Below, in pieces: positions 51,132 to 54,049 of a stretch of DNA of 64,000 nucleotides. The translations under genes and the position numbers were made by a program. Under the pieces are notes generated by a model. The model was not told the DNA's origin. It was given only the letters and a program-made list of their open reading frames with translations, and ran no database searches. Numbering within the stretch: position 1 is the first letter of the stretch; each line of letters starts with the position of its first letter. This DNA comes from Aquabacter spiritensis (GTDB lineage Bacteria > Pseudomonadota > Alphaproteobacteria > Rhizobiales > Xanthobacteraceae), in the NCBI RefSeq assembly GCF_004346185.1, contig NZ_SMAI01000001.1, positions 372,001 to 436,000 on the forward strand, in the 5' to 3' direction.

Positions 51132-51147
51132 TGTCGGGTTCGAGACA
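51132..51147. promoter_or_regulatory. NifA site of nifH
   Basis: TGTCGGGTTCGAGACA fits TGT-N10-ACA, about 80 bp before the sigma-54 promoter. It shares GCCTGTCGGGTTCG with the site before bolA. Confidence 0.8.
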
Positions 51148-51211
51148 TGGCCGATCTCTGCATTTTTTATATTTCATATATTTCTCAATATATTAACAAG
51201 ATCACTGAAGC

Positions 51212-51227
51212 TGGCACGCTCGTTGCT
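51212..51227 (+). promoter_or_regulatory. nifH: sigma-54 promoter of nifH
   Basis: TGGCACGCTCGTTGCT is a perfect TGGCACG-N4-TTGCW, differing from the nifB promoter by two bases. The AT-rich stretch before it could hold an IHF site. The start codon is 156 bp further on, an unusually long leader. Confidence 0.9.
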
Positions 51228-51382
51228 GATACCAATCGGCACGGCGAGTGAGGGCTGAGCGCACGCAGACGCGACGACGAGCGATGTGCTCCTTCCCGTA
51301 ACCGGCGAGCCTGTTTGTGAGCGATAGCACGCGTGTTTCGGCACGTGATGATCATTGGCACTCGGTTCGAAGGACATCCAAC

Positions 51383-52273
51383 ATGTCGTCACTACGACAA
51401 ATCGCATTTTACGGTAAAGGCGGGATCGGGAAGTCGACCACGTCTCAGAACACCTTGGCGGCACTGGCCGAGATGGGGCACAAGATCCTCATCGTCGGCT
51501 GTGATCCCAAGGCGGATTCCACCCGGCTCATCCTCCATGCCAAGGCCCAGGACACCATCCTGAGCCTCGCCGCCGCCGCCGGAAGCGTCGAGGATCTCGA
51601 GCTCGAAGAGGTCATGAAGGTCGGCTACCGCGATATCCGCTGCGTCGAGTCGGGCGGACCGGAGCCCGGCGTCGGCTGCGCCGGACGCGGCGTCATCACC
51701 TCGATCAACTTTCTCGAGGAGAACGGCGCCTACGAGGACATCGACTATGTCTCCTACGACGTCCTCGGCGACGTGGTGTGCGGCGGCTTCGCCATGCCCA
51801 TCCGCGAGAACAAGGCCCAGGAGATCTACATCGTCATGTCCGGCGAGATGATGGCCATGTATGCCGCCAACAACATCTCGAAGGGAATCCTCAAATACGC
51901 CAATTCCGGCGGCGTCCGGCTCGGCGGGCTCGTCTGCAATGAGCGCCAGACCGACAAGGAGCTGGAACTCGCCGAAGCGATGGCCAAAAAGCTCGGAACC
52001 CAGCTGATCTATTTCGTGCCGCGCGACAACATCGTCCAGCACGCCGAGCTGCGCCGCATGACGGTTCTGGAATATGCGCCAGATTCCGTTCAGGCCGGCC
52101 ATTACAGATCGCTTGCCCAGAAGATCCACAACAATGGCGGCAAGGGCATCATCCCCACCCCCATCACCATGGACGAACTCGAGGACATGCTGATGGAGCA
52201 TGGAATCATGAAGTCGGTCGACGAGAGCCAGATCGGAAAGTCTGCCGCGGAACTCGCCGCCCTCTCGGCGTGA
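51383..52273 (+). CDS. nifH: nitrogenase iron protein NifH
   Basis: 296 residues, ATP-dependent reductase of the MoFe protein. [11 protein letters not shown] is the P-loop, GCAGRGVIT and DVVCGGFAM hold the two cysteines (Cys99 and Cys133) that bind the shared 4Fe-4S cluster, and the Arg of GRG (residue 102) is the site used for ADP-ribosylation in other bacteria. Switch regions intact. It is not followed by nifDK, the usual partners, but by nifQ, an Irr gene and nifW. Confidence 0.98.
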
Positions 52274-52282
52274 TCCAAACCC

Positions 52283-52310
52283 AGGTGCCGGCCCCTGCGG
52301 GCCGGCACCT
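52283..52310 (+). terminator. hairpin between nifH and nifQ
   Basis: AGGTGCCGGCC with GGCCGGCACCT forms an 11-12 bp stem with a 4-6 base loop, 10 bases after the nifH stop and without a T-tract. More likely an RNA-stabilising or partial-attenuation hairpin than a full terminator. Confidence 0.65.
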
Positions 52311-52397
52311 CTCCGGCGCAAGATTGGGCCGGACTCCAAGAACCAAAAATGAGGGAACGCAGAGGGCAAGGCGATATTGGCTCTGGGGAGCGCAGAC

Positions 52398-53144
52398 GTG
52401 ACCGCACCGGTACCGCGCCAACATGCGACCGAATTGGCCCCGGCACCCGCCTATGCCGAGATGCGCGCGAGCGAGGCCGGGATCGCACTCTATGTCCGGC
52501 TCACCGGGTGCCGGCCCACCCACGCGCCGACCGAATCGGACACGGGCTTCGACCGGCATATTCTGGCCTCCATCCTCGCCATGTCGGCGGCGGAGGGCGG
52601 GCGCCTCACCGACCGGTGCGGACTTTCGGAACCCGCGCTCGCGGACCTCGGCGCCCGCTTCTTTCCGGATGCCGATCTCATCACCTGTGTTGCGATGCCT
52701 GCACCGCAGCCCGCACCCGCCCTGCCGGACCCGGACGAGGTCGCCATGGTGCGGGATCTTCTCCTCTCCCACAGGTCTTCCGACCTTGGCCCCTGGCTCG
52801 CCGTCCTTTTGGCGCGGCGGGCGATGGAGCCGAACCATTTGTGGGAGGATCTCGGGCTGCGGGAGCGTTCCGAACTGACCCGCCTCCTCACCCGCCATTT
52901 CGCGCCGCTCGCCGTCCGAAACACCCGCAATATGCGGTGGAAGCGCTTCTTCTATCGCATGCTCTGCGAATCCGACGGTTTCGTCATGTGCGCGACTCCG
53001 GTCTGCACCCAGTGCACCGACTTCTCCGTCTGCTTTGCCGAGAAGACCAGCGAGAGCCGCATGGCGGACCGCCGCCGCGCACTCGCTTTGGCCGCGCCTG
53101 CGTCCGCCGAGGCCGCCCTTCAACCCGCTGCGCAACCAAGGTGA
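52398..53144 (+). CDS. nifQ: NifQ, molybdenum donor to FeMo-co synthesis
   Basis: 248 residues. NifQ supplies molybdenum for the cofactor as a Mo-Fe-S unit. The C-terminal cysteine motif C198-x4-C203-x2-C206-x5-C212 (MCATPVCTQCTDFSVCF) is the family hallmark. The GTG chosen has GGGGAG seven bases upstream; a TTG at 52377 is the alternative. Follows nifH. Confidence 0.92.
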   Translation: MTAPVPRQHATELAPAPAYAEMRASEAGIALYVRLTGCRPTHAPTESDTGFDRHILASILAMSAAEGGRLTDRCGLSEPALADLGARFFPDADLITCVAMPAPQPAPALPDPDEVAMVRDLLLSHRSSDLGPWLAVLLARRAMEPNHLWEDLGLRERSELTRLLTRHFAPLAVRNTRNMRWKRFFYRMLCESDGFVMCATPVCTQCTDFSVCFAEKTSESRMADRRRALALAAPASAEAALQPAAQPR

Positions 53145-53149
53145 CCTGG

Positions 53150-53668
53150 ATGGAACAGATGATCGGTCAGATCTCACGCCACAGATCCGCGCCGAGCCCG
53201 GAGCCCGATCTGGCCCCGGAACTGCGGATGATCTGGCGCGGAGCGCCCTCGGACCTCCACCGCTGGATCGATGTCATCCGTCTCTTGCGTGGCGCGGGAC
53301 TGCGCCCAACACGTCAACGCTTGGTCTTGGGCCGGCTTTTGTTCTCCAAAGGCAATCGGCACGTCACCGCCGCCATGCTCCACGACGAGACCATGAAGGC
53401 GCGGATCCCAATGTCGCTGGCGACCGTCTACAATACCCTCCACCACTTTACCGAGGTCGGGCTGCTGCGGCGCATCGGCGTCAGCGGGACGATCGCCTTC
53501 TTCGACACCAATCCCAGCCGCCACCACCATTTCTTCGTCGAGGACGAGCACATGCTGTTCGACATTCCCGCCGAGGACGTCGGCATCGACACCCTGCCCG
53601 CGACACCGACCGGATTCGACGTCTCGGGTGTCGATGTCGTCGTGCGCCTGAAGCGCAGGCCGTGCTGA
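53150..53668 (+). CDS. irr: Irr-type Fur family iron regulator
   Basis: 172 residues. LLRGAGLRPTRQRLVLGRLLF is the DNA-binding HTH start, ATVYNTLHHFTEVGLLRRIG the recognition region, and SRHHHFFVEDEHMLFDIP the metal/heme region typical of Irr. The usual heme-regulatory motif of Bradyrhizobium Irr is not visible. A nif-operon copy suggests iron or heme status tuning of nif genes; the genome's main Irr would be elsewhere. ATG lies 5 bp after the nifQ stop. Confidence 0.85.
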   Translation: MEQMIGQISRHRSAPSPEPDLAPELRMIWRGAPSDLHRWIDVIRLLRGAGLRPTRQRLVLGRLLFSKGNRHVTAAMLHDETMKARIPMSLATVYNTLHHFTEVGLLRRIGVSGTIAFFDTNPSRHHHFFVEDEHMLFDIPAEDVGIDTLPATPTGFDVSGVDVVVRLKRRPC

Positions 53669-53695
53669 TGCGCGCAGAGCCGCGATGAGGAGACG

Positions 53696-54049
53696 ATGAT
53701 GAGCGGAGTTGATCGCCCCCCCCTTAAACCAGCCGGCATTCTCGCCCAATTGAACGCCGCAAGCTCAGCAGAAGACTTCTTCGGTTTGCTCGGCGTCGAT
53801 TACGACCCGAAAGTGGTCCAGGTGTCCCGCCTGCATATCTTACGACGGATGGGACAATATCTCGTCAGCGAGGATTTTTCCGGTCGGCCCGATACCTGGG
53901 TGGCGGAGCGCTGCAAGGCCGTGCTCGAACAGGCCTATGCCGATTTCGTCGCGTCCTCGCCGATCGACCAACGCGTGTTCAAGGTTCTGAAGGACGCCGT
54001 GAAGCCGCAGCCGGGCCCGGCCTTCGTTCCGCTCAGCACGCTGAAATAG
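53696..54049 (+). CDS. nifW: NifW
   Basis: 117 residues with ILAQLNAASSAEDFFGLLGVDYDPKVVQVSRLHILRRMGQYL (shown in part: AEDFFGLLGVDYDPKVV), the pattern of NifW, which protects or helps mature the MoFe protein against oxygen. Fourth gene of the nifH operon. GAGGAG precedes two adjacent ATG codons; either can be the start. Confidence 0.92.
   Translation: MMSGVDRPPLKPAGILAQLNAASSAEDFFGLLGVDYDPKVVQVSRLHILRRMGQYLVSEDFSGRPDTWVAERCKAVLEQAYADFVASSPIDQRVFKVLKDAVKPQPGPAFVPLSTLK

Follow-up and report, generated by a model that had tools for sequence, protein, structure and literature searches.

We analysed a 64,000-nt stretch of Aquabacter spiritensis DNA (hereafter the window; C1:372001-436000; the genome comprises 5.16 Mb and is assembled into 51 contigs), in which four nitrogen-fixation-associated genes lie head to tail on the plus strand at 51383-54049, in the order nifH-nifQ-irr-nifW. 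All four were found at the positions where an earlier note had placed an operon, with profile scores above the respective cut-offs: nifH at 51383..52273 (TIGR01287, 460 bits, cut-off 394), nifQ at 52398..53144 with a proposed GTG start (PF04891, 179 bits, cut-off 27), a nif-linked irr paralogue of 172 aa at 53150..53668 (NF045677, 189 bits, cut-off 170, and also a second Irr model, NF045678, 182 bits, cut-off 150), and nifW at 53696..54049 (NF002009, 161 bits, cut-off 117). By these coordinates the gaps are 124 bp between nifH and nifQ, 5 bp between nifQ and irr, and 27 bp between irr and nifW, suggesting that irr is co-transcribed with nifH, and printed RNA-seq results for Bradyrhizobium sp. 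DOA9 agree. Directly 3′ of the nifH stop codon is a perfect 12-bp GC-rich hairpin without a T run (52283..52310, plus strand), in the same place as the small RNA BjsR8, which the accessible part of one report assigns to the nifH 3′-UTR of B. japonicum (PMC5082802). Downstream, also on the plus strand, follow fixA (54463-55308), fixB (about 55323-56426), fixC (56438-57745) and fixX (57788-58081), assigned from below-cut-off matches to FixABCX-related models and from tblastn synteny with relatives. No match for nifV or cysE was found within the window, and the irr-nifW interval holds no gene.

Promoters of the operon

Pattern matching on the plus strand located two NifA-type sites of the form TGT-N10-ACA, a distal one at 51103..51118 and a proximal one at 51132..51147, followed by a sigma-54 promoter, TGGCACGCTCGTTGCT, at 51212..51227, 171 bp ahead of the nifH ATG; the -24/-12 element and the TGT-N10-ACA sites stand at the distance proper to a NifA/sigma-54 operon. 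The fixABCX genes have their own promoter on the same strand (54365..54420), with a NifA-type TGT-N10-ACA at 54365 and the sigma-54 site TGGTACGGGGCTTGCT at 54405, which has the form TGGTAC-N5-TTGC. The nifH promoter had been described as the best sigma-54 promoter of the window, but it is one of two equals, as TGGCAC-N5-TTGC(A/T) matches both at 51212 and at 39475, ahead of a nifB-like gene. When nifH promoters were compared between loci, as the note had proposed, 38 of 40 distinct loci proved to have a sigma-54 element together with at least one TGT-N10-ACA, and mostly a pair of them, upstream of nifH; at 36 of the 40 the sigma-54 element precedes the nifH match by 168-183 bases. The two loci outside the 38, L099 and L291, are on contigs that break off approximately 20 and 140 bases before nifH. 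Because the sites recur in this way, we do not regard them as chance matches.

Expression data in print point the same way for a Bradyrhizobium relative. As given in the available text of the DOA9 study, transcripts of nifH, nifQ, nifW and an irr gene, BRADOA9_v1_51509, were strongly lowered in RpoN mutants, and fixA carries the number 51505 (PMC13207237). With fixA at 51505 and a gene order of irr-nifV-cysE-nifW-fixA at locus L329, the number 51509 fits the nif-linked irr, so that BRADOA9_v1_51509 is, by this locus-tag count, probably the orthologue of the window gene. Linkage of irr with nif is already visible elsewhere in print: in the consulted portion of Tsoy et al. 2016, irr is one of the Rhizobiales genes assigned candidate NifA sites (PMC4999443), and a figure in a Bradyrhizobium genome paper, likewise available in part, draws irr among nitrogen-fixation and denitrification clusters (PMC10708946). 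Within the literature that we searched on Irr or the Fur family together with nif, mostly non-subscription papers, we found no study of the function of the nif-linked gene.

A single nifH in a recurring gene order

A genome-wide PF00142 search identified a single true nifH; two further matches above the cut-off each span only 111 bases and align with just positions 6-43 of the 271-position profile. Of the two possibilities raised previously, a sole nifH or an extra copy, the first therefore stands and the second is ruled out. As the note had observed, nifDK are missing 3′ of nifH, where the next gene is nifQ; the genome search that it called for placed them together with nifEN on another contig (C17:40660-46716). 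The same contig carries nifV-like and cysE-like genes about 12 kb from nifD (L013:9097-11027), 58% and 72% identical, respectively, to those of Bradyrhizobium BTAi1. In two congeneric genomes (G302 and G344) nifH-D-K-E-N...Q are contiguous in one row, and their NifH and NifD are 83-84% and 74% identical to those of the window's genome, whereas Azorhizobium-type NifH (L076 and L106) is 94-95% identical to the window protein. Ordinary Irr shows no such gap (89% identity to the congeners, 87-88% to the same Azorhizobium-type genomes), and for this reason the nif system of the window seems to differ in ancestry from that of its congeners; transfer is likely on the same sequence comparisons.

The suggestion that nifH had been rearranged was right in that the gene is separated from nifDK, but the separation is not a local accident: a nifH that lies away from nifDK and heads a row of nifQ-irr-nifW is the established arrangement in a lineage. 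The order nifH-nifQ-irr-(nifV-cysE)-nifW-fixABCX is found again in Azorhizobium, in Afipia and in many Bradyrhizobium, including BTAi1 and DOA9. Sampling 198 genomes of the window's family yielded 50 with NifW; among the other 49 NifW-bearing stretches nifQ is present in 33, nifH lies directly ahead of it in 12, and in 11 of these 12 irr is directly 3′ of nifQ, the exception (L077) belonging to a genome with a single Irr (G035). Counted over all 49 other NifW-bearing family genomes, irr is directly 3′ of nifQ on the same strand in 12, the twelfth being a stretch that starts at nifQ, at a contig end (L080). Across the order, where the NifQ search was positive for 70 of 397 genomes, 66 further NifQ stretches from 65 genomes comprised four with irr behind nifQ, 61 with none and one that could not be judged; one of the four comes from the window's family and three from family f32, in which nifQ follows nifEN. 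Nine stretches from the class-wide search had irr behind nifQ in no case, absent in eight and unjudgeable in one. Among the best 80 named loci of a NifQ scan that confirmed 277 relatives, a set that overlaps with the family and order sets, nifH adjoins nifQ in 69, and irr is open in 44, broken in three and absent in 33. In this scoring, L339 and L355 have full open irr frames in which the pattern motif differs, and L307, in which the end of irr is cut short, is counted as broken. Of the 43 named loci scored irr-intact by the motif pattern, 39 have a nifV match and many also have cysE, and the remaining four (two Azorhizobium and two metagenome assemblies) resemble the window in having no nifV match.

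An Irr paralogue without the heme regulatory motif

The genome contains four Fur-family genes: the window irr, a second, ordinary Irr on C15 that is 63% identical to the window protein over residues 40-170, and two others. In an Irr tree with 95 distinct rows, built on 134 columns, which are few for that number of rows and leave the bootstrap not fully settled, the nif-linked label changes twice, compared with a shuffle mean of 31.7 and with none of 500 shuffles as low. The window row lies in a six-row nif-linked clade with support of 100/99. One of the mixed spots is family f32, where a non-linked copy groups with linked copies; the starred branches are incompatible with just a single label change, so the tree does not establish a strictly single origin. 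By its place in this tree, the window Irr is best described as an old paralogue travelling with nif.

Where the heme regulatory motif would be expected, the window Irr reads LHRWID in place of GCP(W/F/I)HD, the B. japonicum-type form, which is not required of all Irr proteins. The pattern [GSN]CP[WFI]HD occurs in none of the 47 distinct nif-linked copies from the window's family, which keep the Cys in eight cases and Cys-Pro in five, versus 18 of the 20 distinct non-linked Irr sequences in the compared genomes (17/17 in the family and 1/1 in f50, with SCPWRD and MAPAGD in the two f32 copies that do not match). The tree and the motif census include L307 and leave out L339 and L355, whose Irr frames likewise have no Cys-Pro at this place. 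Motif loss in the family's nif-linked group, as read from these alignments, is conspicuous when compared with the ordinary Irr proteins of those genomes. It is neither universal among nif-linked copies nor special to nif: GCPW is retained by one Hyphomicrobium and three f32 copies, the four linked ones that lie outside the family, and only 11 of the other 24-25 non-linked rows from the order-wide search match the motif.

Other features of the protein are retained. The window Irr has HHH at residues 125-127, and HxH is present in all 51 nif-linked copies examined, a count to which HxH[FY] contributed as a condition for scoring a copy intact; a proline stands between the histidines in 32 of 50 linked copies. 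In the stretch of the alignment that we take to be the recognition helix, from knowledge of Fur proteins, 17 of 21 residues are identical between the window protein and the genome's ordinary Irr. Comparison of the window irr with its five nearest relatives gave dN/dS values of 0.12-0.22, indicating that the gene is under purifying selection; synonymous change in these pairs is close to saturation. Median dN/dS was 0.26 for 103 free-living-type pairs versus 0.48 for 50 symbiotic-type pairs, the types having been assigned in this analysis and the pairs sharing sequences and hence not being independent.

Within Bradyrhizobium, we also compared the state of irr with the presence of nodC in 49 genomes. 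Of the 15 without nodC above the cut-off, 14 have an open irr and one has none, while among the 34 nodC-bearing genomes irr is open in 17, broken in three and absent in 14. The difference in open frames (14/15 versus 17/34; Fisher p 0.004) is confounded by descent and cluster type, so the association of irr with nodC is suggestive and independent losses are not claimed. The sole genome lacking both nodC and irr (L325, G993) has two short nodC-end fragments, and three nodC-bearing genomes (L279, L285 and L329) have an intact cluster with cysE. As 14 of the 34 nodC-bearing genomes are without irr and three have a broken copy, the gene is dispensable in some settings.

Direction of regulation and comparison with known systems

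Nitrogenase is among the most iron-hungry of bacterial systems, and to our knowledge the routing of iron and heme to it in diazotrophs is not well understood. The earlier note proposed that Irr links iron status to the expression of NifQ and NifW. This was not supported: lying inside the operon, irr would itself be a product of the NifA/sigma-54 promoter, and what evidence there is points from nitrogen-fixation status to Irr. Nitrogen-fixation status likely sets the amount of Irr, the reverse of the proposed arrow, and it is probably iron control that is reset by nitrogen fixation and not the reverse. An arrow from iron to NifQ and NifW is possible, with no support of its own; a regulator gene within an operon need not regulate that operon.

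We consider it about an even chance that this conserved Azorhizobium/Bradyrhizobium nif operon carries a heme-turnover-resistant Irr laid over the Irr regulon. NifA and sigma-54 would turn the operon on when nitrogenase is needed, so that the Irr paralogue would appear at that time. With the CPWHD-type motif for heme-triggered destruction gone, the paralogue probably escapes heme-triggered turnover and would be expected to remain present under abundant heme and iron, and with HxH and the window's putative recognition helix kept it may bind largely the same operators as ordinary Irr. A second, turnover-resistant Irr over the Irr regulon would then re-tune iron and heme use during nitrogen fixation, while iron flows into nitrogenase, and NifQ and NifW expression would not be its main target. 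If this is correct, an iron regulator made together with nitrogenase and spared destruction triggered by heme would answer directly, for one lineage, how iron and heme are routed. A broader version, which we advance only tentatively and regard as doubtful, is that an old, NifA-made Irr paralogue that travels with nif and is no longer turned over in response to heme overrides the ordinary iron regulon in free-living-type diazotrophs and was discarded, perhaps repeatedly, upon Nod-factor symbiosis in Bradyrhizobium, where the plant may supply iron, making it a switch between nitrogen status and iron homeostasis.

The same observations can be read in other ways. The position of irr within the operon and its intact putative DNA-binding helix would suit local feedback of the kind supposed in the note, in which the operon's Irr, bound close to the promoters of nifH, fixA or other nif genes, lowers or raises nif transcription according to iron or heme; we consider this unlikely, given that the promoters resemble ordinary NifA/sigma-54 promoters and that no ICE-like site was found upstream at 40 loci, at two of which the sequence is truncated. 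The latter point is weak, because the operator pattern TTNRGAANNNTTCYNAA and its looser forms, taken as a presumed ordinary-Irr consensus in place of a printed one, which the text consulted did not give, had zero matches in the nif region and also zero genome-wide, so that the positive control failed and we conclude nothing on Irr operators. It is similarly improbable, in our judgement, that the paralogue has no signal of its own and acts as a partner or competitor of ordinary Irr, by heterodimer formation or operator competition, with motif loss making it a constitutive Irr. An ordinary Irr is encoded in the same genome with the 63% identity noted above and a near-identical putative recognition helix, and the heme regulatory motif is lost, but the other heme or metal site, HxH, is kept (in part a selection criterion), which suggests that sensing remains.

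We give still less credence to a passenger gene, an Irr copy trapped in the nif cluster, maintained by hitch-hiking and now decaying, and consider it quite improbable. The gene is absent or broken in half of the nodC-bearing Bradyrhizobium genomes (17/34), and decay would also be consistent with its faster evolution in the symbiotic type; set against this are the open frame in nearly all genomes without nodC above the cut-off, the age of the paralogue group and the low dN/dS of the window copy.

The closest systems already described are the nif clusters of the DOA9 chromosome and BTAi1, which like the window have nifH-nifQ-irr...nifW-fixABC with sigma-54 and NifA-type sites before nifH, but unlike it have nifV and cysE between irr and nifW. 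Azorhizobium oxalatiphilum and A. doebereinerae share with the window an irr near nifW without a nifV or cysE match, and their Irr proteins belong to the same 100/99 clade, yet these are only 58-62% identical to the window Irr over the alignment. Ordinary B. japonicum Irr is, like the window protein, a Fur-family regulator with HxH, but as described in the parts of two reports available to us it has GCPWHD, where heme binding starts degradation, HxH being a second site (PMC7762939, PMC11442138); the window Irr has no such motif and lies in a nif operon. Finally, the Irr of Rhodobacter sphaeroides, which the accessible text does not place in a nif operon, unlike the window gene, resembles the window protein in having no heme regulatory motif and shares with the majority of nif-linked Bradyrhizobium copies a proline between its histidines, and according to the same text it still binds heme despite the missing motif (PMC3413700).

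Nif-linked irr beyond the window

At three loci of nodC-bearing Bradyrhizobium (L304, L305 and L307), the nif-linked irr, an Irr-type paralogue of the Fur family inside the nif cluster, is frame-broken or truncated at an end, and a fragmentary fixA adjoins the damaged gene at each of them. A different arrangement was found in a Hyphomicrobium assembly and in family f32, which lies outside the window's own, where four loci (L177, L184, L186 and L332) carry the order nifEN-nifQ-irr with nifEN in place of nifH; their irr genes retain GCPW, the start of the heme regulatory motif.

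nif systems of congeners

Contiguous nifHDK genes of a different lineage were identified in congeners (genomes G302, G344 and G389; loci L362-L365), with NifH at 83-84% identity to that of the window. In the incomplete genome G389, a further fragment of nifH was also found that matches the window's copy at 139 identical residues, which would point either to two nif systems within one genus or to a mixed bin.

The nifB-like gene and its neighborhood

The window's other sigma-54 element of the TGGCAC-N5-TTGC form, besides that of the nifH operon at 51212, belongs to a nifB-like gene. By pattern matching, its promoter stretch (39362-39490) has this element at 39475 and TGT-N10-ACA sites at 39362 and 39402. 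Because the ORF starts as listed fall inside the sigma-54 element or a few bases past it, translation probably begins at a more internal codon. Between this gene and a nifS-like class-V aminotransferase gene lies an ORF (37998-39254) that carries a SIR2_2 domain (PF13289, 78 bits) and has a weak ThsA-like match in PADLOC.

A hairpin behind nifH

A GC-rich hairpin with perfect 12-bp arms and without a T run lies 3′ of the nifH stop (52283-52310). Within the first 120 bases of each nifH-nifQ gap, perfect arms of at least 9 bp occurred in 22 of 72 distinct gaps, drawn from related loci, versus 7 of 1620 simple shuffles. Such a hairpin could hold the nifH mRNA level above that of the downstream genes. 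In B. japonicum, BjsR8 is described as a small RNA processed out of the nifH 3′-UTR (PMC5082802).
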